Origin: Trochalopteron elliotii
Lineage: Eukaryota; Chordata; Aves; Passeriformes; Leiothrichidae
Assembly (NCBI GenBank): GCA_024734555.1
Contig: JANPWX010000172.1
Span: 333,973-397,972, forward strand
Direction of reading: 5' to 3'
Length of the DNA stretch: 64,000 bases
Position 1 is the first letter of the stretch. Each line of letters starts with the position of its first letter. This document shows, in pieces, positions 2,434 through 61,376 of the stretch. The notes beneath the pieces were generated by a model that worked only from the letters and a program-made list of their open reading frames with translations, was not told the origin of the DNA and searched no databases. The position numbers and the translations under genes were made by a program.

Positions 2434-2557
2434 GTAGATCTTGCCAGTTTGCACATCAAGACAGGTGCCAAGAATATGCCCGCAGTGTTCTTGCTGACAG
2501 ATGCCCAAGTTCCAGATGAATGCTTTCTTGTGCTGATTAATGACTTGGTAGCATCAG
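2434..2557 (+). pseudogene. DNAH11: Dynein pseudogene exon A (AAA4)
   Basis: Starts after the acceptor ccttacag and ends before GTGATT. The 124-bp frame is fully open and reads [19 protein letters not shown] followed by [12 protein letters not shown], the AAA4 core of outer-arm heavy chains. It ends in phase 1, compatible with exon B. This is one of the best preserved pieces and on its own would pass for a functional exon. Confidence 0.92.
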
Positions 2558-3364
2558 GTGATTAAACCAACAAATTTCTTGAAAGATCTTTTCCAATGAC
2601 AAATGATCTGTGTTTTCATTGAACTTTAAAGACATTATTTCTCTTTCAGATGTTTGTAGGGGGAGAATCTAGAGAGGCCATGTCAAGCCATCCAACTTGA
2701 GCATTGAGTCAAACTTGGTTAAGAAAGCATGGCTTGTTGAGGAGACAAATTGCTAAGGCATATCATGCATAGGTGCATTGGTCTGGAGGGAAAGAAGAAT
2801 GTCCCTTTGACTTAACATTATGTTTGCTTTGGTGTGATTTCACTAATATTAAGCAATGTCGCCTGACTGCACAAGTGTAGCATGTAGCAATGAAGCTTCA
2901 CTCATGTTTTGAAGATTCTGGAGAATCTGGACTCTGAATGAGGGGATGTGGGGATAAGATGGAAGAAATAATGCACATCTGGACAGCTGGAGTGCATCTT
3001 GAAAGATTTTTTTAGAAGTTATATTTACATTTGCAACTAGACTAGTAAACAATTTACCGATAGCCTGGGAAAAAAAGAACCACCATTCTGAGGGGAACAT
3101 AATTTATAAGTGAACTTCCTATCAGGGAAAATTCAAACCAAAGTTGTTTTCTATCCCTTAAAAAAAAAAAGAAGAAAAGAAAAGAAAAAGAAAAGAATAG
3201 TTCCTTTTAGGCAAAAAGACATAGGGAACAGGAGGAGACTGTTTTGTTACTAGATATATGTAGCATCATACCATAGCTCTGGTTATGTGCTTAAATGCCA
3301 TTGGGCTAAATACCATGTAGAAGATTATTTGTCATGTGTTACCTACCCCTCTGTCTTTTCATAG
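2558..3364. other. Intron A-B
   Basis: Short intron with intact-looking GTGATT donor and ttttcatag acceptor. It carries an A/G purine stretch near 3160-3195 and nothing else recognised. Confidence 0.6.
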
Positions 3365-3504
3365 GAGAGGTTCCAGATCTGTTCAGGGATGAAGACATGA
3401 AGGTCATAGTTGCAGGAGTTAGAAAAGAAGTCTGAGCCCTGGGCCTGAAGGACATCAGAGAGCACTGCTGGAGGTGATTCCTGAGAGTGTGGCTGCAGTA
3501 GAAA
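3365..3504 (+). pseudogene. DNAH11: Dynein pseudogene exon B (AAA4), three stops
   Basis: Follows acceptor ttcatag and ends at donor GTAAGG. Reads GEVPDLFRDEDMKVIVAGVR, then a stop, then GLKDIREHCWR, matching the AAA4 segment that follows LINDLLASG in the family. The length (140 bp) fits the expected phase with no indel. In-frame stops sit at 3433-3435 (TGA), 3475-3477 (TGA, where the family has Phe after CWK) and 3499-3501 (TAG). Confidence 0.92.
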
Positions 3505-11052: not shown

Positions 11053-11213
11053 ATTGTCCTGTGTTTCTGTCCCATCAGTCCCATGCTGTGAGCATGAGCT
11101 GGGAACTTCCCAGCCGTGGTTAACTGCCCTGCTATTGACTGGCTTCATGAGTGGCCATGGGAAGCCCTTCCCTCCAGCAGCAGGAGGTTCATTGTGGAAG
11201 CTGAGGGAGTGAG
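11053..11213 (+). pseudogene. DNAH11: Dynein pseudogene exon C (end of AAA4), two stops
   Basis: Acceptor tctctgcag, donor probably GTACAG. Reads IVLCFCPISPML, stop, Ala, stop, then [20 protein letters not shown] and [11 protein letters not shown]. This is the AAA4 segment that in the family reads LCFSPVG, NCTAIDWFHxWPQEA, SRRFIEE. TGA codons lie at 11089-11091 and 11095-11097. The 3' end is about one base short for the phase of exon D, suggesting a small deletion there. Confidence 0.9.
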
Positions 11214-18509: not shown

Positions 18510-18770
18510 CCACTCAAGCAGGACTCCATGGTTTATGGTAATTTTATGGCTTCTGCCCACACCAGTGTGAATGTCCTGAGTGCCAAGTACAATCATAATG
18601 AGAGCCAGTACAATTGCACCACTCCAAATAGTTTTCTGGAGCAAATCATGCTTTATAATAACCTCCTAAACAAAAAAACAAGAGGCTGTCATGACACATG
18701 GAATACTTGGTAAATGGCATGCAGAAGCTTTTTTCAGAAACAAGGGAGGCAGCAGCTTTCCAGGTAAACT
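18510..18770 (+). pseudogene. DNAH11: Dynein pseudogene exon D (AAA4 to stalk base), frameshifted
   Basis: Acceptor tatgtacag. Reads FMASAHTSVNVLSAKYNHNE, then YNCTTPNSFLEQIMLYNNLL, the family's HTSVN..RYNYTTPKSFLEQI block. After NKK the frame breaks near 18690-18700, and the continuation in another frame reads MEYLVNGMQKL, matching ERLVNGIQKL in DNAH11. The exon probably ends at 18770 before GTAGAA (reading QV); the GTAAAC at 18764 is an alternative donor. Confidence 0.9.
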
Positions 18771-20811
18771 GTAGAAGTCACAACATTTTCTTTCATTCTT
18801 TATAAATAATCTTTGTTTTATTGCAAATCATTATTGCCTTTTCATTAGACTGATTAGTTGTGGAGTGGCATTTTTGTGTTTCATTCCTGGTTTTTTTATT
18901 ATTATTATTTGGGAGGGGGTTTGTTTGGTTGGTTTTTTTGTTTGATTGGTTGGGGTTTTTTTGGTTGGGTTTTTTGGGTTTTTTTTGGTTTTTTTTTTTT
19001 TTTTTTTTTTTTGCATAGAAGGTCTTTGAGCTATTTAGCTGCATTTGGAAAATTGGAGGGGACAATCCATTTAAGCAAAGACAAAGTCTGGAGGGAGGGA
19101 GAGTGTAGTGGGGTTACTGTAAAATGGTGGGAGGGAAACGTGCCACAGTAAAAGCTAAACCCAGGGTGAGAGAAGAGGCAGCTCGATACGTGTGGATTTT
19201 GTGCATGGCCAGTGACCAGCTGAGGGGTAATGAAAGCAGGAGGAACATGTGTGAAGCCTTTCCATGAGGTGTTCTCACCTGCTGGTGAGGCTGGTGCCAC
19301 TTAGCCCTCAGTTAGTGCTTCTGCTTACAGTTCATTGATGGTTGATCAACCCACAAAGACAGAAAGGAGGGGAATCTGCTTGTAAGCCTTTACCCCATCC
19401 CACCCACACACATGTTCCCTAACCCCCCTGGCAAATGCTGAAGACAAACCATAATCCAGCAATTTCTTTATTAAAAACTAAAATTCTGTGTGCCTTTATG
19501 CAAATGAAATGCTCAGCTGCAGTCTGCATAACATTGCATCTTGATGCTGCTGCATGAGGTTAATAATGGGAGCTGGCTGGCTTATTCCCACTTTGTCAGC
19601 TGAAGACCTTCAAAAAATGGTCAATAGAAAAGAGTGGCTGAGTTTTTAAAGACTGTTTTTAATAGAATGGCCCCTGCTAGTAAATTATTAAAATGCTCTT
19701 TTTCTCTGATTTCTAATTTGATGAGGACCAAATGGTAATTGGACAATTTCATGTGCTGCATGCTGTGCTGGCTAACAGACCCACAGCTTCAGGCACTATC
19801 TACCCAGGCACTTGCACATTGAGCCATTTTTACCCTGCACTCTGGAGCTTTACAGAAGAATATCAAATGAAGCACTGTTTAGTATTTTTCTTAAAGAAAA
19901 AGACATAAAGTCAGCCGAAACAAATTGAAAAATAAAGTGAGGAGAGATTTGGGATCTATACAGATATTTGTTAAAACTCAGTATTACAGCTTTGTCAAAT
20001 CAAATGGTCAAGTTTTGAAAAGGTAAATTGGGTAGGTTTTGCAAGATTTCAGGAGCCCACCAAATCAGGAGAGCCCTCAAGACGTTCCGTGTGATTAAAG
20101 TTTCAGCCCTCTAATATTTGTTTTCCACTTACTCTTATCAACCCTATCCAGATGAGATCAACAAGACCCCACTGGTTACAATATATCTTGATTAGCTGCC
20201 AGACAAAATGATTGGTAGGTTAGCAGGAAAACAAAAAAAAAAACCCAAACCATGCCAAACTCACAGTTATTTGAAACAGTTTCTTTATATGAGAAAAGAT
20301 GTTGTTGCTGGATTTTTTTTATATGAGTTTCTCAGCTGTCAGGCAATGAATTGCTATTTCAGCGAACTAACAGATAGCTTTTGTTCAGCAGTCTTTGAGC
20401 ATGCCTTAACCTTACAGCAAAGCTCTGCTGGCATTATCTGCTCAGAGTGAATACCAGGCATTTTTCATAACATCCTTCTGCCTCTATGTTGGTGTCTTGC
20501 CACGTGCAGCAGCTGCTCCTCTTTTGCCCTGCTGGGACACCCAATTGCAGCCCCAACCTCAGCAGCAGGACAGGCCTCTGAACATATCAGGAGAGCTGTG
20601 GGGCCTGTGGTGGGTACACTTAGGCTGACATTAAATTATTTACATCAACAAAATTCTGTCAGGTACAAAAGGGAAAAAAGGTATAAAAATGAAAAGAAAA
20701 TGCTTCTCGTTAGAGACTCATAAAACATGAGTTTTGTTTTCAGTTCAGCTTTTGGGTCTCAGAGTCATGCCTAATGACCTGAATAATGCATCATCTTTTG
20801 CCCTGTAGCAG
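18771..20811. other. Intron D-E
   Basis: Contains a G/T low-complexity tract ending in 24 T (18885-19012). The part at 19440-19760 is unique sequence with many short palindromes and TAAT cores. No coding recognised. Confidence 0.55.
18885..19012 (+). repeat. G/T-rich tract ending in (T)24
   Basis: Runs of TTTTGGTT-like units followed by 24 T at 18989-19012. On the minus strand it resembles a degenerate poly-A tail, but no element body was recognised beside it. Confidence 0.85.
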
Positions 20812-20952
20812 ATCTAAAATCCGAACTTGCTACTCAAGAGGCAGAACTGCAACTGAAAAAATCAAGATACTGAAGGTTTGATTGCTAAGATAGGGTTTCA
20901 GACTGAGAAACTGAGCCAAGAAAAAGCCATTGCAGATCCAGAGGAGCTAAAG
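20812..20952 (+). pseudogene. DNAH11: Dynein pseudogene exon E (stalk coiled coil 1), frameshifted
   Basis: Acceptor ctgtagcag, donor GTCAGT. Reads [15 protein letters not shown], then after one extra A in the A-run at 20856-20861 continues in the next frame as [20 protein letters not shown] and AIADPEELK. This is the ascending stalk helix. The 1-bp insertion alone would end the protein within a few codons. Confidence 0.93.
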
Positions 20953-23900
20953 GTCAGTCTAATTCTCCTATTTACAGATGTTGAGCTATATTTAGAACAA
21001 AATAAACCTTTTTAGGTGAACAGTTTTGAACAACTTCCTTTCCAGGGAGCATAAAGCTTAAAGAATTATTATACTTACATGTGTAACAGCATTTCACACC
21101 ATGATTACCACTTGACCTTTCTTTACATTATGCCTTTTCCTAACCTTTTAGCTGTTTTAATGAGATGAAAGAACAATAAACACTGAGCTCATTCAAGCAT
21201 TTAATGGATGTGGATCTTGAAAATCAGACCTATTTGTAATACAGTAAAGGTCAAAGAGTCATCTCTTAGCACTTCAGATTTCTAAAGCCTTTGAGACTCT
21301 AGGTAAATTGAACAACTCAATTGATACAGAAGTTCATTCCACCATTTTACAAGGTACAAAACTTGAATCTTAAGATTATAATAGCATTCCTGATAATATA
21401 TGTCTTCAGTGTTGACTCCTTTTTGCTTTCAGTTCAGCCTATTAGCATTAGTTATCAACATCTATGTTGGAAACACAGAGGCTCACGTGCTTTGCTGTTC
21501 ACCACAGAATGAATAGAAATGCATAATTTCATCAGGAGTCTAAAATTTCTATCTACAGTTGTAAGCATGGCTTTTGAAATAAAGCACCAGCAGTATGGAG
21601 TGCTGTAAAGTGAAGTTCCTCTACCTTTGAAGTCTGGAAGGCTCATTCAAGATTGGCATTTTGCCACAAAATCTCATGTACATTGTGTCGTTGGCCAATA
21701 GTGCATAGAGAGAAGTTTTTAATTGACTTGTAATAGTTGTTAATGCCTGATTTTGAGATATGGAAACTTCAATTTTCCAAGGATTTTGTAGTTTCCAGAT
21801 ATTGACCAGCAGAGAAGACTGTCCTATCTAAACATTCAAAATAGTCTCTCATTTTCTTCTATTTTGTTTCTTAAATACTTACCACCAGATGATATTTAAT
21901 ACGTTTCCAAAAACCTTGTGTTTAATCCTGATTTTATTGAGAGAAAAGTAGTTTTTGATACTGAGATAAATGAAGACCTTTATATTTCTCTCGATTATAC
22001 TGACTACAGACTTCAGCCTTTTGCTGATCCTAATCTCACAGAGGACTTAAAAATAACCACGAAGTTTCAAGTCCACATAGTGCAATTTATTAAACTTGTA
22101 CAAATGGGATCCCACAGCTCAATATCTTACCAAACACTCTTCAGTGATGCTTTTCCTGTATTGGTTCCATATGCTTCTGATAAATTTGGATGTTCAAAAT
22201 ACACCCTTAACACAATTTTATTTACTTCATTAAGCAGCTAGGTGAAACACATAGAGTGATTATTGTGAGATAATCACATCTTTGGGCCACTTTGTTTCAG
22301 GGATGAAGTTCAGTGCCTGACACTAATGATTGCTGTTACTCCACTGTTCATTGCTTTATTGCACTTCTGAAATGTTTTCATTGGAAATGAAAGTGTCATT
22401 TTGTGCTACATTAATCTAAAACTGTTTCATAAGGCTAATGATAGTTTCTAAACACTAATCTTCTCTCATTTTTTGTTACCAAAAAAAGCCCAGCAAATGA
22501 GAATATATCTTCAGCTAAGTAATTTGTAAAGACTCTTCCTAATTGATTAAAACATGTCACCATTTAAAAAATTATTTTTGCTTTCCTGTTATACAGATTT
22601 CAAATTGGAGCTTACAAGAGCTTTTTGAGTTTTATCACCTTAAGCAAGTAAATACCTTGGAGGTATTGACCTGGAGTGAAGTATTACTTAAAAAAGAATA
22701 AGTGAAGAATGGAAATGACTTTAGATCAGATTTATTAGGAAAGGTGAGGTCAGTCTGGATTCCACATAACTGTGGCAGGACTACACATACATATACATAC
22801 ATATACACATACATATAGTAATAAACAAGGGTTTTACCATGGTCATGACACTGCTAAGGTTTTAAAACAGTGGGCAGTAACACTGCTGTTGTTTTGCTGG
22901 CCATTATTGTGCTCTGAATGTTGTCAGCCAGAGCAGCTTACACATGAAGGTGCATATGCCATTGCCTTTTAAAATAGGACCTACCCCTTTAAAAACGTGC
23001 AGATCATGATGTAGGTATAGGTGTGTTAGTGACACCAACTGAGGGTTAAGAGCAAATCATAAAAGCTACATCACAGGAGATGAGGGACATATTTAACTTG
23101 ATTAGTAACTTGTCATTTATAATGTAATGCATATTGATTTTTAATATTTGTTATTTCCACAGCCAGTAGCAGTGTGTGTCCTATCTAATAAATGTGTACA
23201 TGGAAAATATGTCTGACAATTGTAGAAACAAGTTTTGTAAGGATATTAAATTCTTACATAGGCTTGTTACTGCCAATGAAGAGTGCTTGATCCAAGTATT
23301 AACATCTTGATCGCTGTAATATCTTCTTTCTCTGTAATTAAAGTAGTTTTAAGCAAGACCTGACAGGAAATGAGCCTGTGAGATGAGCATGAGGTACAAG
23401 GATAAAGATGAACCAAGTCTAACTGACTTCAGCCTCAGGCAATGTATCTTTAAAAGTGTGTATAGTAATCTTCCATATACACAATTGCTGATGATACAGA
23501 ATGCCCCCCAGGTTTGCTCTCCCAAATAAATATCCAGCAATGAAATCATAATCCGCTTTTAAACAGATAATTAAATTGTTGCAGAAAGTTGTAGAGGCAC
23601 TCAGATTTCATGTAAGACTGATGCTAACTGATGTAAAGTCACTGATCTAAGCCACTGTTAAGCCAAAATAAGTGTCTTGACAAAGCTGCTTGAACTGATG
23701 ATTTTTTAATTTCCAAACCTGAAATTAAGTAAGTACAGTGTTTTCCTATAGGCCATTTCCCTTTCTCCCATTCCCTCCCTTGTTGTGACCTGTGGTTTCA
23801 GATTTGAGGAATTAAAAGAAGGCAAATTGCAAAAGATGGAGGCTGGTTTGACAAATTTTATATGTTTTCCTGTACCTCAAAACTGGAGTGAATATTTTAC

Positions 23901-24249: not shown

Positions 24250-24427
24250 GTTGATGACTCTTTGCAAGATTTAATCGACTATGATAAGGAGCATATTTCT
24301 AAGAATTGTCTGAAGGTCGCCAAGAAACATTGCTTTTAGGATCCAGATTTCAACGCAAATTATGTTAATACAAAATTCTTTGCAGCAGCTGGTGTCTGTG
24401 CCTGGGCCATCAGTTTAGTAAAATTCA
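24250..24427 (+). pseudogene. DNAH11: Dynein pseudogene exon F (stalk tip to coiled coil 2), one stop
   Basis: Acceptor tctaacag. Reads VDDSLQDLIDYDKEHISKNC, then LKVAKKHCF, stop, DPDFNANYVNTKFFAAAGVC and AWAISLVKF. The family has VDDFLQ.LINYDKEHI..NCLKVV and DPEFNP..KSFAAAGLCAW. TAG at 24337-24339 is in frame from the exon start. The expected Tyr-Glu before the donor is missing, with GTGAGA following KF directly. Confidence 0.93.
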
Positions 24428-25204: not shown

Positions 25205-25304
25205 GTGTGTTGTGAGAGAGAACCAAAATGTTGTGTGCTGGCTCAGGCTAACACTGAATTAGCGGCAGCTACAGGAAAACTAAAGTCATCAGAAAAAGCT
25301 TCTT
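25205..25304 (+). pseudogene. DNAH11: Dynein pseudogene exon G (stalk coiled coil 2)
   Basis: Acceptor ttttcaag, donor GTAAGT. Open frame reads VCCEREPKCCVLAQANTELA then AATGKLKSSEK. The family has VYCDVEPKRQALAQAN.ELAAATEKL. No stop, but conserved Tyr and Arg-Gln are replaced (Tyr to Cys, Arg-Gln to Cys-Cys), consistent with drift. Confidence 0.9.
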
Positions 25305-44430: not shown

Positions 44431-46094
44431 TGAAAGCAAAGCAAGATTGTTTTCTCTGTGTCAAGCTCTACAGTTTTGCTCCCTCCAGCTGCAGCCAGTT
44501 TTGAAGGCTGTGGAGAGACCATGTTGCAGAACTGGACAGTGAATTCATGTCCACCTGAGAGAGGCTGTATAATCTGAAGGACATGACCATATGGCTAAAT
44601 TATTGCGGTATTATATGATCATAAGCCTGGAAAAGCCATTTCCAATTGTTTGCATGGCAATATTATACATTATATTTCTGATGTTGAGTTTTGTAGAATC
44701 ATGGGTTTCCCAGCACTAGACATAGTAGGTTTCCTTAAGAAATTCACTTAAAGTATATCATAAGCAGCTCTCTGTTCTTTCTTCTCCCTAGTGAAATGCA
44801 GAAGGGTCTCAGCACACCATTTCATTTAGACTGTGTCTTATAGCTAAGGGCATTTCAGAAGCAGGCAAGAGTCTTAAGAGCTGAAACCTACGTTCCTGCC
44901 TCTGACAATGCCCTGTGATAGCCTTGAAAGAAAGCAATGTTAAAATTTCTACAGAAGGTAATTGTTTCACTCATGTTCTGATGTGACTTTCACAAATCAC
45001 ATTTTAAGTGTTTAGGATCTATGCTAATGCAATCACTTTGGAAACTGAGTTAACAAATGCCAATTCGAATTTTATGAAAAGAGTTCATGTCTACCTATGT
45101 TCCATGTTATAAATGTTCTATTGGCCCTTTTTTAAACAGAGTTTTATTACTAATATTTGAATCACCTTTCTTGGCAGAGAACATTCAAAACCATTGCTGT
45201 ACAGAAAATACTGGTTTTGTGCTCATGTGGGGCAAATGAATCCTGAAAATTGACTAACTGTTCACTGGGCAAGTCAATGACAAAAAAGTGTCACTGGGTC
45301 ACACCAGACCAGACACATGGCACACACTGTAGCCCACAAGTAATCTTTCAAATTTTTTTGGTGCTATGCACAGAAGTAGGAAGGTGAACTTCATGTTGCC
45401 TCGCTGCTAGGCTCCAAAATGGTAGCTCAGCAGTAGCAGAGTGGCTGTATAGGACAGGCTTCACCCCTCACTGAAGATAAGGGATCAGGACATGACAGTT
45501 CTTCAGTAAGGGATTTCAGTAAATAAAAGGTGAACCTAGGATAATTCATACTTTCATCCAACAAATAATTATTCTGGAATGAAACATTAAGTAAATTACC
45601 TTTAAAAACCATTATATTTGTTGTTTCAGTTAACAGCCATTTCCTCTCCTCTAGTCTATCCATTTGTTATAAATATATGTCCCTGCTTAGTTTTTTAGGC
45701 TATATATTTAAGGAAATTATAGTAAAAACTAACAACGATCTCGTTGGCATTTTTTTGAAAACTTTCCTAAGTTTCTGGTAAGTAATGATAGTAGACATTT
45801 ATCCCTAAGCCACAGACTCCTCGGTATAGCAGTGAATAATCCCCTGTGTCTGCTGTATATACAAATGAAACTACAACAATTAAGAAATACTCTGTGTATT
45901 CCTCATATACTTTTGGTGTGTTCAATCATACTCATTTTGTTTCTCAAGTTGCAAGCACCTAAAATTTGGCTTGTATGCATTTGGTATACTGCTAAGATCA
46001 TACAGAACCCATTTGTTCTGTAAACCTATCTGAGATACCTATGAGGTTTTAATATAGTGAGATCCCCATTCTTGTGCATTTTATTCTTTCCCAG

Positions 46095-46301
46095 ATGTAC
46101 CAAGATTGAAGACAAAAAATGTGAGTTCAACAAGAATTTTCATCTCATCCTTCACACTAAACTGGCTAACCCTCACTTACAAGCCAGAACTGCAGGCTCA
46201 GACCACCTTCATTAATTTCACTGTCACCAGGGAGAGGCTGGAAGACCAGCTGTTGGCTGAGGTTGTTTATGCTGAAAGGCAAGACTCACAAAAAACATAA
46301 T
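46095..46301 (+). pseudogene. DNAH11: Dynein pseudogene exon J (AAA5), frameshift and stop
   Basis: Acceptor tttcccag, donor GTAAGG. Reads [27 protein letters not shown], then after an extra base near 46176 continues in the next frame as [40 protein letters not shown]11 has [29 protein letters not shown] and QLLAEVVSIERPD. TAA at 46298-46300 replaces the expected final Lys. Confidence 0.95.
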
Positions 46302-47597
46302 GTAAGGACTATATTTTGATTTGTCTGCTGCCTGTTCTGAAATTTTAAGTCTAGAATTAATATGCCTGTTTGAATCCAGTGTACTGTAATTGTTAGTAGC
46401 TGATATTAGAAAGATTTTAGAAGTCTGGAAAGTGTAGAAAGTTCTTTTACCGATCTGTTCAAACATGTGCTCCCAAAGAGATTGTCTTGACCTAAAGCTC
46501 TGCTAGAAATTAAATTTATTGTGATATTATTCCCACACTTCTCTCTACTGCTTGGTTTGCTCTGTGCATTGCATTTAATTTATAGTGCAGGATTAAAGCC
46601 CTCTGCAGAGCTTTGTGCTTCAGCGATCTTGAATCAATGACTGTAAATAAAATTCCATGCCAGTCTGTACAAGGATATAATGGCACTGTTAGGAGCTAGG
46701 GCATTTGGTTAATAAATCACAATTTATTTCTGCCAGATGCTGTTCTGTGGCTTCTGCAGTCATACCAATATATAGTATGAGGAGAAATGCTTTTATAAGT
46801 GGTTATAGGAAGGACCTTGGGCAGACTGTAATCTATGAGATAGAACATGAAAAATAAAATACTTAGGGGTGTGAAATTAATTACAAGAATACCTCATATT
46901 TCTCTCGTGTGTCTTTCCAGTCATTCCATGTAAATAACTAACTTTATCCACAAAATTTGCTCTACCTGTTTGAGGTACTCCTGCTTCATGCAAGGGCAAA
47001 CTGGGTCAGGAGGTTTAATTACCCCTTGAAGAGTGAAAGCCATATACTTGGGAATGAGGTCTGAAAACAGCTGTCCATTTACTTCTGCATCTGCACATTG
47101 TTCCACCTGGGACTGCATGCTTACAAGGCCTGTATCACCCAGGGTTTTGGTGTGAGTCAGTCTGACTGACTGAGAACTCCCCATAAGATGAGTCGAGCTC
47201 TTGCACTGTCTGGTCAGTCCAGCAGAGCAGACTATGATGATGTTTTTCCACTCTGTGGCCAAAGTGAGGTTCTTCAGCCTTGTGCTATCCTCTGGTTTTC
47301 TCAGCTGCCACATAGATTACCACTTGCCACCCCTGGCAAGATCACAGTCCTTTTGTGTAGTCTCAGGAGGAAGGGCACTAGGAGAGAGATAAAGTTTTAG
47401 TCCATGACGACCTAAACCTTCTTACTTTTGGTGTTGAGCACCTTAGATCTAGTATACTGGTACAGAAAGTAAACTGGCCTTTCAGAAATTAAATCAAATC
47501 ATCTGATGTAATTAAACCAAAAATATAGCTCACAAATGCTATGAAACTTTATTACTTGCTGAGGTTGTTTGAACACAGTGTTTTTGTTCTCTGCTAG
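46302..47597. other. Intron J-K
   Basis: About 1.3 kb. Nothing recognised; the 130-codon minus-strand open frame at 46921-47313 has no family likeness. Confidence 0.55.
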
Positions 47598-47762
47598 TCA
47601 GTCCTCACCAAAAAGCAGAACAGTGTCACGATTGAGCTCAGGCAGCTGGAGGGTGACAGGCTGCTCAGCCTGTCAGCTGCCCAGGGCAGTCTCCTAGACA
47701 ACAGTGAACTTGTAAAGAAAATCAAATCAGCAAAGTCAACTGCAACAGAAATTCAACACTAG
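47598..47762 (+). pseudogene. DNAH11: Dynein pseudogene exon K (AAA5-AAA6 linker helix), stop and donor damage
   Basis: Acceptor ctctgctag. Reads SVLTKKQNSVTIELRQLEGD, RLLSLSAAQGSLLDNSELVK, KIKSAKSTATEIQH, stop. DNAH11 has LVLTKHQN.FKIELK.LE and LSAAEGSFLDDTKLVE...AEIEHK. The terminal Lys codon is TAG, and the donor is GCAGTT instead of GT. Confidence 0.94.
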
Positions 47763-48261
47763 GCAGTTGCAATTGAACTGTTTCTAACAACTTAAAGTCA
47801 CCTGTAAAATGTTTATTCTTATTATCCTATTATTTTAAGTGCAACATTTCTATGAGCTAGAATAGGAATAGTCAAATTGCTGTCTTTCCGAAAAGGGCTG
47901 TACTCCCCATATTCACATTTTCATATCTATATGTAGTTGTCACACATTTGATTTTTTTTAGGTGTTTGAATTAGTACTCATAAAATTAATAAATACCAAC
48001 ATGAAATTAGAACAAATGTATTAATATATGATTGCCATGTTTTCACAGGTAAACAGGCATATTTCTGCAGAGGACAGTTATTCCCTAAAGTTTGTCTAAG
48101 ATAAGAAGCTTGCTTACTTTAAATATTTGCTACTGTCAGAAATAAAGTCAATTTTCTAGAGTATATCTATATTTTTTTCTATATGGATAGGAATATTTTG
48201 GAAATTGTGCGGGATAATCGTGGCACATTAAAAAATAAACAGGACACCTGTCATCATTCAA
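47763..48261. other. Intron K-L
   Basis: About 500 bp with a damaged 5' donor (GC) and a damaged 3' acceptor (AA). Nothing else recognised. Confidence 0.6.
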
Positions 48262-48402
48262 GTAGCTGAAGCCAAAGAAAATGAAGCTCAGGATAACAGA
48301 ACAAGAGAGCATTACAGACTGACAACCACAAGAGCATGCATTCCTTACTCCGGGAGTGTCAGCCTGGGCAGTGTCAACACCATCTACCACTTTCTACTGA
48401 AG
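48262..48402 (+). pseudogene. DNAH11: Dynein pseudogene exon L, open frame but acceptor lost
   Basis: 141 bp, 47 codons, no stop. Reads VAEAKENEAQDNRTREHYRL, TTTRACIPYSGSVSLGSVNT, IYHFLLK. DNAH11 has VIEAKENERKINEARE.YRP and VAARASLLYF.....KINPLYQFSLK, aligning without gaps. The expected AG before the first codon reads AA; AG occurs one base later. Donor GTAAAA. The frame survives but many conserved residues are replaced (ASLLYF to ACIPYS). Confidence 0.9.
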
Positions 48403-49026: not shown

Positions 49027-49261
49027 GCCTTCAATGCATCTTCCACAAAGCAATTAAACAGGCTGAAAAATCAGAAGATATTCAGTATTGTATCTCTAAC
49101 CTGAAAGAAGCTGTCACATGTTCAACCTGTATTTTCACATGCCAAGGATTTTTGAAAATTATAAGCTCATTTTTCTGGCCCAAACAGCTTTTCAGATGAG
49201 GAAAAATTTTGATATTTGTGATGATGAACATTTACCGAATTTACTGTTTCTTCTGTGGAAG
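49027..49261 (+). pseudogene. DNAH11: Dynein pseudogene exon M, two frameshifts
   Basis: Acceptor actttcag, donor GTGATG. Begins AFNA, loses one base by about 49040, then reads HKAIKQAEKSEDIQYCISNL and KEAVTC; a second one-base loss near 49146 moves the frame again to FENYKLIFLAQTAFQ and a diverged tail ending in NLLFLLW. DNAH11 has [34 protein letters not shown] and LDFLLRF. Confidence 0.92.
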
Positions 49262-50283
49262 GTGATGCCTGTGCCCAAACCCTGTGGTTGTGCAGTTTCT
49301 CACACAGGGTGACTGCTGCTTCAGTATCAATAATAATTGCAGAAATTCCAGAGATGCTATCATGTAATTCTTTTCATTTAAAATGCTGCAATGACTTCAT
49401 GAAGCTAAGTTCAGGATAAACATCATGATTTACTGTTTGCATTTGGATAATTAGAGTTGAAATTGATCTGATATATGAAGTTAGAAGTAAATAATGCATA
49501 TCCCAATAACATTCAGGCTGTTGCTTTTCCTTGTAATTTTAGTAACTGTATGCCCTGGAAAAAATCAGGACTCAGATGTACTGGGAGGCAGAGGTCTGAA
49601 GCAAGTCTGATGACCTTTTTCAATTTTGTGTGCTGTCAAGGTTCTTCTGAGTAGTAAAGAGATAGAGCTCCTTGAATTGTATTTCCTTTTTCAGTTCAGA
49701 GTTGAACACAAAAGAGTCCAGTTGACTTTTTAACTACTCAGCCATGGAGTACCATTAGAGTAGTTTGGAGAAATTGCTTTTCAGTTCTGAATCTTTTTTG
49801 TTATTATTTCTGGTCACATGCCTCAACTAGACAATTTCAGATAAAGTCAAACATTCTACCATAATTGTTTTAGTAGAACTATTGATGTTTTCAAAGTGGA
49901 GTTTTGTTCACTATTTGAGTGCCTTCCTCCTTAGACATCACATACTATATCTTGTGAAGAAGCTCTGTTTTACCGTAAGTTGTCCACTCCCCTAAAAATA
50001 GAATTTTAGCTCCATGCCAACTCCTTACTGCAGTAAATGTCCCATACAGGGTTTTCAATTTGTGATATCTAGATGTTTCACAGTAAGCAAACAATGTCAA
50101 TACCAAGCAAAGTAACCCTTTATCAAAAATACTGGGGTTTTTTTATGTGTGCTTGTGTGTATAGATATGTATCTTTGTATTTTAAGGCAAGTCCTGAGTC
50201 CCTTGGTTGCACTGGGGTTTTTTACATACCTCAGAAATTATCAGTGTCATCCTGTTTCAGTCATCATGCAAAAGGCACATCTG
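49262..50283. other. Intron M-N, 3' border uncertain
   Basis: About 1 kb. The acceptor of exon N is not clear. LSPLVALGFF near 50191 faintly recalls LSPVDFL of DNAH11, so the exon may once have begun earlier. Confidence 0.45.
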
Positions 50284-50489
50284 TATTTGGCATGCTTCCA
50301 GGCTATGGCAGTGATGGATGTGTTCAGAGGGGTAGATAAAGATATTTAAAGATCCATCAAGAAATGGAAGAAGTGGGTGGACTCAATATATCCAGAAAAG
50401 GAGAAGTTCCCCTGGGAGTAGACAAAAAAAAAGCTCTTTGTAGAAACTAATAATAATGTCCATCAGGACAGAATGTCGTATGCCCTGAG
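50284..50489 (+). pseudogene. DNAH11: Dynein pseudogene exon N, two stops
   Basis: Reads ACFQAMAVMDVFRGVDKDI, stop, RSIKKWKKWVDSIYPEKEKF, PWE, stop, then QDRMSYALR before donor GTAGGA. DNAH11 has [40 protein letters not shown] and PDRMTYALR. TAA at 50347-50349 and TAG at 50419-50421. The 5' border is approximate. Confidence 0.93.
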
Positions 50490-51383
50490 GTAGGAAATCT
50501 GAGGGTTCATTTTTCATGGCAAGTGTGTGTGAGGGTGGTGCCTTGCATGGGTCTGAAAAATTCAGAACTTAAGAAGCAAGAAAATAACTTCTAGAACTGG
50601 GTGGTCAACCAGAATTTGAGATCAATTACTTGGTCCTTCACAGTCTGTTCTCCTGGTGAAAAGTTTACGAAGAGGTAGTGTGGTAAGACATGAGTCACAG
50701 CATATTTGGAGAGCTGTGATTCTGGTTTCTTTTAGACTGAATATAGGTACCTGAGGAGAGCAGTCATTGATAAATAGACATACAGCAAGCTATCCTGTTA
50801 ATAGTTAAAAATGTATTTTACAGTGTTATTTCTCATTATGGTTTTAGAGCTGGTAGGTAACCCCACAGCATGACAATTATTCAGGTCTCTCTTTTGAAAA
50901 TGCTATGATACTAAGCAAGATTTTGTAAGTCTTCAGCTGTGGATCCTGACACATTTGTTTTCCAGTTGTACTGCTTTTGTCTTTTGATCCCAAGTGATGG
51001 TCCTATAGACCTGTCCACACCCCACAATCACCATTTTTACCCATTTTTAAATGACTTCTGAGAATGCAAGCTTGGTTCTGGGTATTTATTTTGCCAAGCT
51101 GCCCTGGCTTTATGTGACAGTATTGCCTGCATGTAATGATGTTCTTTTCATTCAGAAGTTGCTGTTTTCTGTCATATGGCCACTATCCTGCAGGGAAATG
51201 GGAAAGATCATCTTCTCTCTTGCTTCCCCACCTGCTTCCCTTCTTGCCTTCAGTTCACTCTCCTGATCATTTCTCTGATGAAATGACCATCGGTGTCAGA
51301 TGCTCAAGTCTGAGAATGGTGCAGACCTGAAGTACTTATCAAGGCACATCTTTTGTGTTCAGCGGATGTTTTGTCATGTATAG
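50490..51383. other. Intron N-O
   Basis: About 900 bp. Nothing recognised. Confidence 0.6.
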
Positions 51384-51532
51384 GAACTTTGTGGAGAAAA
51401 ATCTTGGCTCAAGATATGTGAAAAGCACAAGGATGGATTTAGCAAAATGCTAAGAGGAGGGCAGTCCAGCCACTCCTGTGTTTTTCATCCTGTCTTCATG
51501 ACTAGACCCACTTGAAGATCATGAGACAATAT
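51384..51532 (+). pseudogene. DNAH11: Dynein pseudogene exon O (AAA6), two stops
   Basis: Acceptor catgtatag, donor GTAAGC. Reads NFVEKNLGSRYVKSTRMDLA, Lys-Cys, stop, EEGSPATPVFFILSS, stop, LDPLEDHETI. DNAH11 has [42 protein letters not shown]. TAA at 51451-51453 and TGA at 51499-51501. No indel. Confidence 0.95.
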
Positions 51533-52557
51533 GTAAGCCTCCTATTTGTTTCTGGTTCAAGGACCACTTAACTCTGCTCCTGTTAAAGAAAGGACAGTTG
51601 AGCTCAAAAGTGAAATGGGGCATGCAGGGCTAGAAATGTGCATAAATTTGTTACATGCTTGTGTGTATTTGCTTCTACACATGTATGTGTAGATGTATTT
51701 TTTTTTACTGAACAGAACAAAGCCTTCTGGATTCATCTATCACTGGGATGTAATATGCCTTACTGTGGGATTCAAGTTCCAAAGTTTCTTCCACCCCCAC
51801 CATATTCATGGCAATGGGGTGGATGAAAAGTGTAAGGCCATAAGCACTACAGTATAAAGAAATTTTTAGAGCATTCCTCTGCTTGGCATAATGCAGGTTT
51901 CCTTTGTGCTGTTTTCTACCTTTTGACTAGATGAGGGCCAGAGGGCAATTTTCTCCATGCTCATGTAATCTTGTGCCCCCTGTGACTAAATAATGGTCAT
52001 TATACAAACTATATTCAATTGTATGGGGCTCTGTGGCTTTATACTTAGGATTACTATTCCCCACAGACAATAGTGAGAATACCGGGTTAATACAGCTGTG
52101 ACCTCACTGTGCTCAATTTAAGCTCAGGCCCCACAAGGTGAGAGGCTTGTGCATTTACCCACTGAATCAATCAGTTAAAAAACTGATGCGATATCTACCA
52201 CATGTTGCTCCCTTTTTCATGAGGGAATTGCTCTGTACCCCCCATAAGAGTTTCTAAAGCTCAGTAACAATGCTGAGCATCTATCAAAATGTCAAAAGGT
52301 TCATTATCTTAAAACCAAGGGAACAGATTTCTGCAGGCTTTTTCTAATACCAGCAATAAGGCTGCTGTTGAGAGCTCGCAATTTTGCTTGTTGAAATTGT
52401 AAGGGTTTAGTGAAGTGCTTCAGAGGAAGTAATATGCATTGCACAAGTGATAGTGAAATTAATGGGGGCATTTTCATTCTTTTTCCTTTCTACTCTGCTA
52501 ATTTTCCCATCTCCTCCCCCTCCATCACTCACCCTTCCCCAATTATTTCTATTGTAG
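51533..52557. other. Intron O-P
   Basis: About 1 kb, ending in a good pyrimidine tract and attgtag acceptor. Nothing else recognised. Confidence 0.6.
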
Positions 52558-52685
52558 GCAAAAAGTTTGGGCTCACTATAGACTCTGGAAGATTTCATAA
52601 CATCTCTCTAGGACAAAAGCAGGAGATGGTTGCAAAGGAGGCACTCAAGAAAGCTGCCCCACATGGCCATTGGGTTCTTTTCCAA
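52558..52685 (+). pseudogene. DNAH11: Dynein pseudogene exon P (AAA6), open frame
   Basis: Acceptor ttctattgtag, donor GTGAGT, no stop or indel. Reads [47 protein letters not shown]11 has [20 protein letters not shown] and [16 protein letters not shown] is among the best DNAH11-versus-DNAH9 discriminators in the window. The continuous open frame on either side (52410-52790) is coincidental. Confidence 0.95.
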
Positions 52686-55248
52686 GTGAGTGTCAAACTG
52701 CCTCTGATGGGGGAATACCTCCTCAGCTGGAGGGATGTTCCCAGAACACAAAATATGCGATGGATTACAGAAAAAGTTCTAAACAGCTAATAATCTTGTT
52801 CCATTTGCTTTTGGTTTTGGTTGTAACGGGATAAACGTCATATTAATAGGATGTATGTCACGTTTTGCTGAACAGTGCACTCTCCCAGAAGGAACAGGAG
52901 AGATAAAACAGAAAGCCCCTGATGGGTGGGTAGGACTGCCCTCAGGCACACCCTTCCCCCACCTAATTAAGAGCTCCTATCCATTCAGCGGGCCATAATG
53001 GAGACTTTAATGAAAAGGGTCTGACTCTCCCTGGGGCAGCTGTGTAATTAGTCCTGGAGTGCTGCTTTTCTGAGATAGCAGCCACGGCTTTGGCCAGCTT
53101 TGTATGGACCAAGAACCCACTCTGCTGTGGACAAAGGGATCCGTGGGATGCCCTGGCAAGCTGTGGTTTCCCAGCACAGGAACAGAGTGAACAGGAGCAC
53201 TGTAACCATAAATGCCACTGACAAAAAGATGCTCCCTCCCCAGTGTTTTATGCTAAATAGCCAATGTTTATACGTGACAACCTGTCAGCCCTGAAGCCAA
53301 ACGACAAATGCATGTTCCAGGCCTTGACATTAAGGTGGTTGTGGGAATGGGGTGATTCTCTCCTCTCCTGGTTTTAACCTCAGCAGCCTGCTTTGTCTGC
53401 CAACCAGGTCGTCTGCTACAAATGAAGAGAGAGGTTAAAGTCAGTGTTTTCTCTGAGATGAAACAAAACCATCATGGGATTAAGGAGAGGTCCTGGTGTG
53501 CTAGGCACTGTGAGAGCATGTACAAACTGTCCCCTTCCTCAGCAGTGAAACTGCAAGTGTGCTGAACCATATTTCATGTGAGTGAGCTAATTATGCCAGT
53601 CTGAAAACAATCCTGCATGGAAATGTTGTCAAGTTGGTTTTCAGGGGAATTTCAGGGTTCTCAGCTGCTCCGGGGGCAGAATGACAAAATGGGAGATGGC
53701 GGAGGCAGTGTTGTGTGTCTGAAGCCACAGGGATGTACGGGGAACATCAGAGAAGCTTGTGGTGTTACATGCCTGCTCCATTTTTCAACCTGTTATGACT
53801 GGATTTTGAGGGAGGAGAGAGACAACAATTTTGCTGTAAAGGTTTTTGACAGTGAAGGATTGTGGGAAGTCTGAAAGGAAACTTCATGAAGATGTTGGAC
53901 CAAATCCCAAATGGTGTTAAGCTAGCTAGAACTATTGGGATTTGGATGCACTCAGTGCTTCTCAGGCTTTAGTGTTCTGCTTTTGGGCCCAAAAACCCTG
54001 TATTCAAAAAAAAATTTGGAGCAAAAAGATGAAGTATTTTAGTATGAATTTTATTGTAGGCTAGAGGGTATATAATCAGATATTAAAAAGAAAACAACAA
54101 ACCAACCTACACCTGCTATTCTGACTGACCTGGGAAATACTTTAAAAATTACTTTGGCTTCAGATGTTGCAAAAGCAGTTGACACAGTGGTTGGCAACCT
54201 GGCAAGAAGAAAGACTGACTTCAATTTTTCAGGTGTCATGTTTAACTCTTCTGTCACTCATAATTAATGTCTCAAATTCAGATATCTGATATATTGAATG
54301 CTTATTTTGTTATTTTATTAAGGCTTGAATCACTTCCACTTTGCATTGGATGGATATAGCCTATATGAAGATTCAGGTGCCGCGAGGCTGCAACCATGTA
54401 ATGGGATATGGAAGTCTCCCTCTCTTTCCATTCCCCTATTCCTTTTTCCATGTGGCAAGGGACAGTTTGGGAATATTCCCCCAGCAGACCTCATAATAAA
54501 GTGATGCAGCAGCCAGACTGAGATGTTGTATTCTTTGGCTCTAATTCCTCCTGCCCTGCATGGAGATTGCCAGTGCAATCAGGAGGTTCTGGCACATCAG
54601 TGAAGAGCCAAAGAAAAGCTCGTGGATGAGCTGCAATTTGAGTTGAAATGTTAGTACTGTAACAAAGAAATGTGGAATGTGGGCTAATGGTGTGGTTAAA
54701 ACGTCTTTAGCCCAGCCACATTTTAAACTATTCTCTATATTCCTGTTTTTCACCAGAAAGTGCTTTGGAGGCAGATACTTTTCCATTATAACTCTCTCCT
54801 CTCATCTATCAGTGCCTTTCCACTGTCTTCGTGTGTTTAGAGCCTTAAACACAGTTACACTCTGAAGCAGTCTGAGACGTATTTCCTAAGCAGCAGGATA
54901 GCTGGAACCATTTTTCTGCCTACTGCTTCTGTCTTGTTCCTGGTATATCTTGGATGTGTTTTGTCCTAGTTCCAGTTCTACAAGGAACTTAAAGAGAGTC
55001 CAGGTGTCTTCTGAGCTGTGCTTGTTTTTGTATGTGATAGCACCCACAACCATAGATCACTTAACCCTGAGTTTATAATGTTTTCATTAGCTTCAGAATC
55101 AAGGCCTTAAATTCTAGAAGCTAATGGTGAAACCTCAAAGTGACAATGATGTAACTGTTACCACATTAAAAAGTCACAATGACAATGACTTAAGGACAAC
55201 AAATTTATTTTGTTTTGTAAAATAACCATATTGACTGTTTATCAATGG
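52686..55248. other. Intron P-Q
   Basis: About 2.6 kb of unique sequence. Open frames at 53617-53874 and on the minus strand at 54051-54786 show no family likeness. Confidence 0.55.
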
Positions 55249-55471
55249 AATATTTGTCTAAGTAGCTGAGTAGTTCAGAACCTTGGACAAACTCCTTGAG
55301 CAATACAATATGTCATTCTGGTTTCTGTGTCTTTATCAGTGCTAGCCAGCTCCAACAATAGAAGAGCAAATCGTTCCCCAAGGAATAATAGGAAATTCAA
55401 TTAAAATTACTGGTGAACCTCCTACAAGGATGCTGGCTAATTTCCATGCTGCTCTCTATGGTTTTGACCAG
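55249..55471 (+). pseudogene. DNAH11: Dynein pseudogene exon Q (AAA6), acceptor lost, frameshifts and stop
   Basis: The expected acceptor AG reads GG. The start NICL recalls NVHL; after an extra base comes VAE, stop (TAG at 55271-55273 for Trp), FRTLDKLLEQYN, a frame change, CHSGFCVFISA, then a one-base loss before [20 protein letters not shown] and [26 protein letters not shown]11 has [35 protein letters not shown] and MLANLHAALYNFDQ. Donor GTAAAA is intact. Confidence 0.94.
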
Positions 55472-57797: not shown

Positions 57798-57968
57798 GAT
57801 ACCCTTGAACTGCGTGCCACAGAAGGGGAATTTAAAAGCTTCCTTTTTCCTCTGTGCAGCTTTCACACTTGCGCTCCTGGGAGACTGAAGTTTGGCCCTC
57901 GGGGCTGGAAGGGAAGGTGCCCGATCCTTGTCACAGTCCTCAGCAACTCTTCAGAGGCCCACAAGAAG
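57798..57968 (+). pseudogene. DNAH11: Dynein pseudogene exon R (C-terminal region), in-frame deletion
   Basis: Acceptor cttggacag, donor GTAAGA. Reads DTLELRATEGEFKSFLFPLC, SFHTCAPGRLKFGPRGWKGR, CPILVTVLSNSSEAHKK. DNAH11 has [37 protein letters not shown] and, after PFSPGDL, TICASVLYNYLEANPK. About seven codons (FSPGDL region) are gone in frame; no stop. GRLKFGP, with Gly-Arg-Leu instead of Glu-Arg-Arg, points to DNAH11. Confidence 0.95.
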
Positions 57969-60900
57969 GTAAGAAGTGGTCAGGTAACCACACATCAAGG
58001 TCATTTCCACTCAGTCGCATGTTTATACTGAATAAGGGGGACAAAGTTCTTTCCCTGAAGCTGTGATTTAAGTAGCTGGCGTTTTATGATGCTGTTGGTG
58101 AGTATGGAAATAAACCAGATCAAAGGTAGTGGGGAGTTGTGGGGTTTTTTTCTGGCAGTGGGTGCTTGAACTTTGTAATACAGGTCAAACCAGTTCCACA
58201 TCAGTAGCTAAGGGGGAAAAAAATGCCCTTCATTATGTTAACAAAAACAGGGGTTTACATGTGCATATATGCCAAATTCATTAGGCAGGTAATGAAGCAT
58301 TTGCACAAATGTAATTACAAACAGCAATTCTGACAGTTCATAACACTGCATTAATAATCACTACAATTAGTTCTGATGATGGAAGCAATTTACAGCACGT
58401 CACATGTATAAATAATGGTGCATTTCCTGAATGTGTCATTATTATGTATTAAGGATGCCACCTTGTTGTGACTTTCTCAGTAATGTTCCCCTTGAGTCAA
58501 AGTTAAGGATATGAGAGTGATTTTTTTCGGAGCTACAGCATATTTCATACTTGTATAGTTTAAATACTGAGTTGAGTCTGTGTAAGTTCTGTATGTGAAA
58601 ATGTGAAATGCCTAAATAAAAGACAGTAATTATTTGTTACTGAATGATATAGGATATTATTGAATAGATCCTCCCATTTTAGTAATTTAAATAAATTTCA
58701 GAGATATTTATAAAGAAAAAAGGAGACAGAAGTGTCACTCCTTGATGATATGGTTTTCTCCATATCTCCCAGCTTGTATTTACTCTGAGAAATTAATTTT
58801 CTCTTTGTCTTCATAACCCTACTCGCCTTCATTTAGTTAGTAGGACATCAAGCTGTTTTTCCTTTTTGTGGTACTTGGTGTCATAGTGAAATAATTGCTT
58901 AATTTTATTATGATGATTTAATAATGCTTCCCATTTAAAAAACAGTCTATGAAATCAGCTTATTCCAACCCTTAGTTTTCTTTGCTAATAAATCTTGTTG
59001 CTTTAAGCTATTCTTTTCAAACCACAATTCATAAGCTGGATAATTCATTTTTCTAATTAATGAGAGGGAGGATTCTGATGGCAGGGAATACTAGAAAGGT
59101 CTGTAAGAGCAAGAATTATTTCTTCTCTCCTCCTGGTAATATTGCTTATTGGCCTTTCTCATTGTACTGCTTAGTGATTCATTACCCTGTGGCTTCATAA
59201 GGATTTTTTTAACGTAGATATTGGAGACAGAAATAAGACAAGAGTTTTTTTTTTTAATGTGAGTTCCTATGTATATATGTCTATGACCTTGTGTTTATAT
59301 ACATACATATATACATACATATATACATACATATATATATAAAATCATATGTATATAATCTTCCAAATTATTGTCTTTTGGGAACAACTTCCTGAAGACA
59401 ATTAAGCATTGACCAGAAAGCAGAAAGCATAAACTGGGCAACTTGAGCTAGCCATCAGCTAGTGGAAATTGCCATAACTCCGTTATAACTTCCACCAGTT
59501 TATAGTGTTTTCCTGAAAATATTTAATCTTGTATCTCAGTTTTTCCTGCTGCTAAGACAAACTCCAGCACACCAACCTGCAATAGTTAAGGTCTCTTCAT
59601 GTGAAGTACAAGATGTCTGATCCTCCCTCACTGTTCCACTCTTGCCCTCCAGCTTCTGACCCCTGCCCACATGTACAAGGTGCTGTCATTGGATGTTGTT
59701 GTGGGGGGGGAAGTAGATTCTGTCCTCTCCATTATCCACCCACTCAGCAACGGCTCTGTGGGTTTTTGGGTACAACAGACCAGTTTTGCATAGAGTACAA
59801 TGGCAATTATGTGAACCTGACAGCCCAAAATATTTCTAATGCAAACTCCGCAGTTTTCTCACACTCGCAAAAATGTCCCTTTTATATCACCAGCTTTGAT
59901 TGTCCCAGTATAATCAATGTACCAGAAGTGTGCAGCTGAACGAGCTTGTACTGCAGTAGAATATTGATATACTCTTCCAAAAGACAAAGGAAAAAGCAAT
60001 TTCTTGAGATAAATATATATGAAATTAGAAAAACATTAAATGAGTTTTTGTTGCTGACAAAGAGAAAAGCAGGTTTATTCTGACTGCAAGAACGTTTCGT
60101 TCTAAATCCAAGTTGCTGGAATTTTTCACAGGGATTCTCTTCTCAGCCTTCTCATCACAAGCATGCAGCACTGCATATTATATTCCAGTGGCTTTTTTAA
60201 AAATTCTTTTTTCATTTTCTTTGAACCAATTTAAAATAAAGATGGATTAGCATTTCACATAAGCAAATTGCTGCATACAAGTTTATGTAGCAAGCAGGCT
60301 GGAATATTTTACTTGTTCTGTTCTGTCACATCATGCAATATTTAAAGCCTATAATTAAGTTTTTACTCAAACTGTTGGGAGGCAAATACTGCCCCCAAGG
60401 GTGTAAAGGTTCCTGTCTGCAAAGGTTTCATCACAAACTGGCATATTTTGCAAACCTAAGGGGAGCAAAAAGAAGCTTCAAATGCTGTGAAGCCAAATAA
60501 AAGAGAGAGACAGTAGTTCCTTGAATAAAATGTTTTATCACCCTTAACCACATGCTTTCTCTGTGGCATTATGACTAGAATTCTACAATAAGCTTACTGC
60601 TTATATGATGTATCAGTAATGGGATTAATATTAATTCCATTTTTACCAAAGTTCTTGAATACTTCCCAATTTCAAATAATGCAGAATTTCAGTAACTAAA
60701 TGTTCCCTAGTGAGGAGATATAAAAGACTGCAATCAGATACAAGTTTTTTATTTCTTCTCCAAGAAAGGCACAGTAGGTTACCTTCCTGTCACTCATGAA
60801 GATTATATCTTTAAAGATCTGTATGGGAAAATACATGCACATATTCACAAAGTTATATTCTCTCATATCATGTGGTGTTTTGAAAATGTGGTTTTCTCTA

Positions 60901-61215
60901 AAGTTTTTTTATAAGGGCTAAGGTAGAAAACAGAAAGCTTGGATAATATATTTTACACCATTACTGAATTTTAGTCAACAATTTGCTATTTTTGCTCAGA
61001 TACCTCTCACTGGACTGAAATAAAAGAAATCTGATTTTAATGTTATTTGCTGAGCAAACCAAACCCAGCAATGCAAATGTATAACCATGAAGCTTCCTGA
61101 AAGGAAGCAGCTGGATTTCTCTTATGTCTCTTAACCGCATCTATTCTGAACAGCCTTGGTTTGTTCTTTAAGCAGGTGACTTGTTTTATTCAGTGATGCA
61201 CTCTATATTCCTCAG
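57969..61215. other. Intron R-S
   Basis: About 3.2 kb. An ATAC/ATAT repeat lies at 59298-59342. The 112-codon frame at 59601-59939 is unlike any family known to me. Confidence 0.55.
59298..59342 (+). repeat. (ATAC/ATAT)n microsatellite
   Basis: Regular 12-bp rhythm of atacatacatat over about 45 bp. Confidence 0.9.
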
Positions 61216-61376
61216 GTGGGTTCCACAGGAAGACTTGCATAACCTCCTCAGTGAGATCATGTAAGGTGGCCACATCAGGGGTGCCTGGGACTGCAGCCTC
61301 TGCTGGATCTGTCTGCAAGAATTCCTCAGCCCAGTCCTGCTGAGAACTTTCACACATGCCTAAAGCTCTTGAACAG
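61216..61376 (+). pseudogene. DNAH11: Dynein pseudogene exon S (C-terminal region), stops and frame damage
   Basis: Acceptor attcctcag, apparent donor GTACAG. After about four extra bases at the start it reads VPQEDLHNLLSEIM, stop, GGHIRGAWDCSLCWICLQEF, LSPVLL. The family has [40 protein letters not shown]. TAA at 61262-61264 replaces Tyr of the otherwise invariant MYGGHIT. The last part has two more stops and no clear likeness. This is the last dynein exon I can see. Confidence 0.93.

Follow-up and report, generated by a model that had tools for sequence, protein, structure and literature searches.

The stretch of Trochalopteron elliotii DNA analysed here, referred to below as the window, is 64,000 nucleotides long (C160:333973-397972 of an assembly of 1.04 Gb in 2215 contigs) and carries the decayed remains of the gene for DNAH11, a dynein heavy chain of the outer arm. 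The initial match was at window positions 52395-52790, a Pfam Dynein_heavy region for which DNAH17 (9fqr) and DNAH9 (8j07) were the matches in PDB. A tblastn search of the window with crocodile DNAH11 (P0005) gave 25 high-scoring segment pairs (HSPs) at E <= 1e-3. All 25 were collinear and on the forward strand, spanning crocodile residues 2795-4126 at window positions 766-61336, and none was obtained in any of 20 dinucleotide shuffles of the window. Merging the HSPs that were split by frameshifts left 22 exon blocks on the forward strand, their limits set by hand from the alignments. Twenty-one of these lie within 2434-61376, the region described in an earlier note on this DNA, and one lies upstream of it (748-916). 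The blocks and their lesions are as follows.

748-916, forward strand, AAA4 P-loop exon: stops at 769 and 787; frameshift at ~764 (block edge, less certain); P-loop without two codons (GVGG--KQSL)
2434-2557, forward strand, exon remnant: 88% identity to crocodile; lesion-free; AG and GT borders kept
3365-3504, forward strand, exon remnant: stops at 3433, 3475 and 3499
11053-11208, forward strand, exon remnant: stops at 11089 and 11095
18510-18770, forward strand, exon remnant: frameshift at ~18678; stop at 18692
20809-20955, forward strand, exon remnant of the stalk region: frameshift at ~20856
21278-21401, forward strand, next stalk exon, weak: frameshifted; found by spliced alignment only, without tblastn support, and left out of the counts
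24250-24436, forward strand, exon remnant: stop at 24337
25196-25304, forward strand, exon remnant: frameshift at ~25289
33010-33129, forward strand, exon remnant: stop at 33121
37224-37604, forward strand, exon remnant, AAA5: stop at 37479; three codons gone near 37430
38838-38985, forward strand, exon remnant: frameshifts at ~38901 and ~38917
46093-46301, forward strand, exon remnant: frameshifts at ~46177 and ~46295 (the second less certain, being close to the block end)
47589-47770, forward strand, exon remnant: frameshift at ~47760 (near the block end, less certain)
48253-48402, forward strand, exon remnant: 54% identity to crocodile; no stop or frameshift
49027-49195, forward strand, exon remnant: frameshifts at ~49036 and ~49149; AT at the donor position
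49641-49762, forward strand, exon remnant: frameshift at ~49710
50302-50489, forward strand, exon remnant: stops at 50347 and 50441; frameshifts at ~50419 and ~50459
51384-51532, forward strand, exon remnant: stops at 51451 and 51499
52558-52685, forward strand, exon remnant, AAA6, Pfam Dynein_heavy: no stop or frameshift
55262-55471, forward strand, exon remnant: frameshifts at ~55310 and ~55344
57798-57968, forward strand, exon remnant: seven codons gone near 57923; no stop or frameshift
61220-61342, forward strand, exon remnant: stop at 61262

Inspection by eye placed AG and GT at or near the expected border in most blocks; base 2434, for example, lies directly 3' of an AG acceptor. One clear case of donor loss was seen at 49196, where AT stands in place of the expected GT. 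Because introns separate the blocks (22 blocks over 60 kb), the remnant is not a retrocopy. The spliced alignment also placed a weak possible further DNAH11 exon upstream of the first block, at 462-543. Its mini-exons outside the tblastn-supported blocks, and all of its placements past 61342, were discarded as forced fits.

Lesions within the 22 blocks were counted by aligning the window, with splicing and frameshifts allowed, to a profile built from 23 intact DNAH11s and five from birds. This gave 16 stops, 16 frameshifts, 8 short residue deletions (some adjoining a frameshift) and 3 inserted codons; the frameshifts at 764, 46295 and 47760 are near block ends and less certain. At least one stop or frameshift was present in 18 of the 22 blocks (17 of the 21 inside 2434-61376). 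When the flanking parts of the contig were included, the decayed gene extended over C160:282973-404978, corresponding to crocodile residues 199-4472, with 65 of 65 HSPs on the forward strand; its last C-terminal exons, at C160:398506-404978, lie beyond the window end. Across this whole locus there were 48 in-frame stops in 2911 aligned residues. With the outermost five residues cut from both ends of every HSP, 43 stops remained in 2391 residues, and they occurred in every 500-residue bin from residue 500 onward.

Loss of constraint was measured against 23 DNAH11 proteins, from coelacanth to mammals, chosen from 116 non-bird ones. At the sites invariant in all 23 and covered by the blocks, 117 of 457 were altered in the window, 7 of them to stops. 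When each of the 23 intact species was left out in turn, only 0.2-3.2% of the otherwise invariant sites were altered. The ATP-binding (Walker A) loop of AAA1 reads GPACTDKTETMED in the decayed gene compared to GPAGTGKTETTKD in crocodile and is destroyed, while the DNAH9 of the same genome keeps GPAGTGKTETTKD. A control within the assembly used sites invariant across 17 DNAH11 and 5 DNAH9 proteins. Here 333 of 1098 sites were altered in DNAH11, compared to 25 of 489 in DNAH9 (7 loci, C226) and 15 of 208 in DNAH17 (1 locus, C1006), and some of the DNAH9 and DNAH17 changes are due to HSPs running into introns. Only one stop was counted for DNAH9 in this control, and it is located beyond the end of an exon. 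These comparisons indicate that the DNAH11 locus has lost selective constraint.

The identity of the gene was examined by phylogeny, diagnostic sites and position. In a tree of 29 proteins and 1148 columns, the window and five DNAH11 models from other birds formed one clade (100/100) that was sister to crocodile (96/92) inside DNAH11. DNAH9 formed a separate 100/100 clade; DNAH17 was not included in this tree. P0217 (Cricetulus griseus), which is named dynein heavy chain 17, grouped inside DNAH9 and looks misnamed. At 37 sites that are diagnostic between DNAH11 and DNAH9, the window was DNAH11-like at 27, DNAH9-like at 1 and other at 9. Comparison with the PDB DNAH17 (9fqr) fragment provided 20 sites that set crocodile DNAH11 apart from both paralogs, and the window was DNAH11-like at 14 of these and DNAH9/17-like at 1. 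Overall identity to crocodile DNAH11 was 67.7% over 1132 residues. SP4-type zinc fingers lie upstream of the gene on the forward strand (C160:263.3-264.6 kb), and a zf-4CXXC_R1 domain of the CDCA7L type lies downstream on the reverse strand (C160:406.5-407.5 kb); CDCA7L was looked for inside the window end and not found, as it sits downstream of the window. We take these flanking genes to be SP4 and CDCA7L, and the human gene order is SP4-DNAH11-CDCA7L, the same as here. The tree, the diagnostic sites and the SP4-like and CDCA7L-like neighbours together argue for orthology to DNAH11, and since the decayed gene lies between these neighbours it is at the ancestral place and is not a relocated copy.

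The earlier note had described a DNAH11-like gene in twenty collinear exon remnants on one strand, with most splice borders recognisable and a retrocopy excluded. The 22 forward-strand tblastn blocks, their AG and GT borders and intervening introns, the tree, the 27 of 37 diagnostic sites and the flanking genes agree with this description. Its count of lesions in at least 14 exons proved conservative. Collectively, these results support the reading that the locus is the true DNAH11 gene, still in its ancestral place, which has been inactivated and now decays as a unitary pseudogene. We put the probability of this at about 0.93.

Other birds were compared through their protein models. The window AAA6 exon was compared with 5.8 billion proteins, and the three proteins among the 17 candidates were the DNAH11 models of king vulture, stork and plover, all flagged LOW QUALITY. 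A DNAH11 protein search scored 1570 proteins, and four birds were among the 120 matches listed, the plover model having come from the separate exon search. Besides the window, this gave five bird models (king vulture, stork, plover, penguin and gannet), each flagged LOW QUALITY. The flag alone is weak evidence, as at least two non-bird DNAH11 entries among the matches listed bear it too. No intact bird DNAH11 was found among the 120 matches listed of the 1570 scored. A DNAH9 search meant as a control for bird coverage listed 120 matches, which were mammals and one sturgeon entry with no bird, and the statement that the database holds no intact bird DNAH11 therefore draws on a single DNAH11 search.

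The bird models themselves look broken in all five cases. They were altered at 9.1-17.8% of the sites that do not vary among the 23 intact proteins (up to 1591 sites), in the tail as well as in the motor. The five lizard DNAH11s in the comparison set, by the leave-one-out measure, gave no sign of lost constraint (0.2-1.7%). The AAA1 sequence GPAGTGKTETTKD was present in 114 of 116 non-bird DNAH11s and in none of the five bird models, and the GK core of the loop was broken in four of them (K to R in vulture and stork; C in plover and S in gannet for the preceding glycine). Alignment gap runs numbered 33-61 in the five bird models compared to 2-9 in 21 intact proteins. Among well-flanked single-residue gaps in the bird models, 49 of 93 fell at R, Q, W, E or K, compared to an expected 26% (p=6e-8), which is consistent with masked stop codons. 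The plover model also matches a window intron (51063-51335) at 53% amino-acid identity, and the annotation pipeline therefore seems to have read intron as exon there. Together, these protein comparisons support a decay of DNAH11 that would extend beyond one bird lineage.

A broader reading is that modern birds as a whole have lost DNAH11 and that their cilia run on DNAH9/DNAH17-type chains, without the mammalian proximal-distal division between DNAH11 and DNAH9. We regard this as somewhat more probable than not. In the open-access literature we found no report of DNAH11 loss in birds; most subscription journals lay outside that search. The portion seen of a clinical paper that aligns NCBI RefSeq proteins 'where available' lists chicken for DNAH5 and not for DNAH11 (PMC8584573), and the available part of a study of tetrapod gene evolution gives 74 taxa for Dnah11 compared to 117 for its neighbour Sp4 (PMC8375169). 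Several observations weigh on the other side. The penguin AAA1 loop, GPASTGKT, still fits the general pattern for this loop, which is GxxxxGKT. Lizard, pig and cattle DNAH11 entries among the matches listed bear no LOW QUALITY flag. A 2015 paper, seen in part, maps a transgene to chicken chromosome 2, within intron 13 of DNAH11 (PMC4447378), so a locus, whether intact or broken, had been annotated in chicken. Dnah11 is counted among conserved ciliated-cell targets in a lung-cell atlas in which birds are represented, with the species unstated in the part seen (PMC8648889). Finally, a disabling lesion common to all birds was looked for in the window and the five models and none was found, and a single ancestral inactivating event is therefore not shown.

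The distribution of changes bears on whether selection was lost once or independently in many bird lineages. Among 1162 invariant sites covered in the five birds, 17 had the identical change in all, 11 had differing changes in all and 291 were altered in one bird only. Only 9 of 176 distinct short gaps were common to two or more birds. This scarcity of common changes favours independent losses, whereas a single loss just before a fast radiation, to which the birds compared here belong, would leave few common changes too. The gene looks broken in each of the six birds examined. At crocodile residues 2796, 2913, 2950 and 2952, a window stop falls where one other bird has a single-residue gap, by either sharing or recurrence. 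Forcing the five birds into a clade without the window was not rejected (approximately unbiased test, p-AU 0.163). On balance, we hold many independent losses to be a realistic possibility, at somewhat less than an even chance. Since most lesions and changes are private to a lineage and few fall on the shared stem, selection would have ceased to act on DNAH11 at about the time the modern-bird radiation began, or later. These alignments suggest that it persisted through most of the bird stem and then failed near or during the radiation, either once just before it or several times.

Much less probable is that the window holds a decayed duplicate and that an intact DNAH11 survives elsewhere, for example on a microchromosome that is unassembled or GC-rich. 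The assembly is fragmented into its 2215 contigs, and a number of avian genes that had long been counted as missing have since turned up (PMC12954441; DNAH or dynein was not matched in the part of that paper seen). We searched the genome with the C-terminal 1693 residues of crocodile DNAH11 and scored the best 28 of 218 candidates. These comprised the DNAH11 locus, DNAH9 (C226), DNAH17 (C1006) and more distant dyneins (C27, C12 and C64). No second DNAH11 was found among these 28, none of which exceeded 76% identity to crocodile DNAH11, while DNAH17 was recovered even though it sits on a contig of 97.6 kb. The decayed copy occupies the syntenic slot between the SP4-like and CDCA7L-like genes, and the DNAH11 model met in each of the five other birds is itself broken. 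The earlier note's view that the only copy has been lost, and the check it proposed for an intact DNAH11 elsewhere in the assembly, thus came out in the same direction among the candidates scored, and we consider a surviving intact copy very unlikely.

Both DNAH9 and DNAH17 are present in the assembly with their examined exons open. Rows with a single stop numbered 2 of 9 on C226 and 1 of 6 on C1006 in one assembly search, and 2 of 11 and 0 of 12, respectively, in the search with the C-terminal 1693 residues. The traced stops in the DNAH9 (L012/L017 and L015) and DNAH17 (L014) matches all lie past exon ends; one further stop, outside this traced set, falls in a DNAH9 match at C226:2457732. A frame-split pair on C1006 was rejected as a DNAH17 lesion, as one HSP runs into an intron. 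Three AAA1-region exons on C1006 were 98, 89 and 76% identical to PDB DNAH17 compared to 90, 81 and 65% for crocodile DNAH11. For one AAA6 exon on this contig, DNAH9 (79%) exceeded DNAH17 (75%), and DNAH11 fitted worst.

Outside the window, a further decayed heavy chain of the beta type was first seen by Pfam search at C179:1038629-1076731 (L034, L037-L041). It has eight tblastn matches to crocodile DNAH11 (E <= 0.01), two stops and one clean exon, at C179:1069563. Its identity is 55% to crocodile DNAH11 and 47% to DNAH9, and that of the clean exon is 70% to DNAH11 and 68% to DNAH17. In the tree it forms a long branch (0.72) near the DNAH11 base with weak support, and the remnant gave no sign of a recent duplication of the DNAH11 gene on C160. 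It is a second, older wreck, not an intact DNAH11, and is possibly a fourth ancient beta chain that was lost independently.

We also considered whether the decayed DNAH11 keeps a partial function: its tail might still yield a truncated protein, the locus might give a noncoding transcript, or it might harbour elements that regulate SP4 and CDCA7L. In favour of this, the locus persists undeleted in the genome, four of the 22 blocks are without a stop or frameshift (2434-2557, 48253-48402, 52558-52685 and 57798-57968), and no stop was counted over crocodile residues 199-499. From residue 500 to the end, tail included, stops are present in every bin; in the five other birds, invariant sites are altered in the tail as in the motor; and the window gave no Rfam match at gathering scores anywhere. 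A retained function of this kind is therefore highly improbable. Two repeats were noted in the window, a microsatellite-like stretch at 59296-59358 (TATATACATACA) and a T-rich tandem repeat at 18919-19012.

That the gene is intact and only seems broken through errors of assembly or sequencing has practically no likelihood, as the earlier note had judged for isolated sequencing error: the lesions spread along 120 kb, substitutions have hit a quarter of the residues that are otherwise invariant, a pattern that indel error does not yield, and in the same assembly the examined DNAH9 and DNAH17 exons are open, with the three traced stops lying past exon ends.

How could cilia work if DNAH11 is a unitary pseudogene in these birds? 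In mammalian outer arms, DNAH11 is the beta-type chain proximally and DNAH9 distally. Outer dynein arms in these birds may be built with DNAH9, or with DNAH17 in sperm. Mammals with defective DNAH11 develop primary ciliary dyskinesia, and the side on which their organs lie is randomised. The gene mutated in iv mice is Dnah11, and the expression of left-right genes in these animals is randomised (PMC4292827). Chick Hensen's node cilia are described, in the portion available, as likely immotile, with side being set by cell movements (PMC9816872), and an embryonic role of DNAH11 would therefore be dispensable there. Judging from chick, birds seem not to rely on ciliary flow at the left-right organiser; the embryonic role may thus already have gone in birds, and loss of the gene would have been tolerated. 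The parts seen of two papers describe other animals without such flow: the chameleon has an organiser without motile cilia, yet expresses Dnah11 in the otic vesicle and kidney (PMC10126504), and pig and cow are described as being without a motile ciliated organiser or room for flow (PMC9816872). Since lizard, pig and cattle DNAH11 entries are nevertheless unflagged, loss of nodal flow alone is insufficient, and loss of DNAH11 in birds therefore needs a second step. In its simplest form, DNAH9 or DNAH17 would take over in the airway, oviduct and sperm.

The locus shares exon order, flanking genes and residue identity with the DNAH11 of other vertebrates, and differs from it by its stops, its frameshifts and the loss of the AAA1 ATP-binding loop. 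DNAH9 and DNAH17 belong to the same family of beta-type outer-arm heavy chains, but their examined exons, on C226 and C1006, are open and conserved. As a single-copy gene decaying in place with its introns kept, DNAH11 resembles unitary pseudogenes such as GULO in primates, the classical case; the difference is that its loss removes one isoform of a multi-subunit motor whose paralogs remain. Among laterality genes, MMP21 has been lost in cetartiodactyls, and CIROP and PKD1L1 are likewise named as lost. These cases are alike in that a laterality gene is lost in a clade that does not set left-right by ciliary flow. However, MMP21, CIROP and PKD1L1 are flow-sensing or signalling genes, whereas DNAH11 encodes a motor subunit that airway cilia use as well, and for DNAH11, unflagged lizard, pig and cattle entries exist. 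As a unitary pseudogene, the finding is ordinary in kind; what makes it notable is which gene is affected and how widely among birds the loss appears to extend.

If the loss is truly bird-wide, birds would be a natural knockout of a gene for human ciliary dyskinesia and situs inversus. Vertebrates that breathe and clear mucus without DNAH11 would show that the outer arm can form lacking this subunit, and would let one ask directly what DNAH11 adds. The loss also bears on how left and right are set without nodal flow. If chicken is included, past work on the chick 'left-right dynein' may concern a paralog or a gene that no longer works. The comparison that separates the embryonic from the airway role of DNAH11 would come from lizards and even-toed ungulates, in which flow is described as absent and DNAH11 is unflagged.

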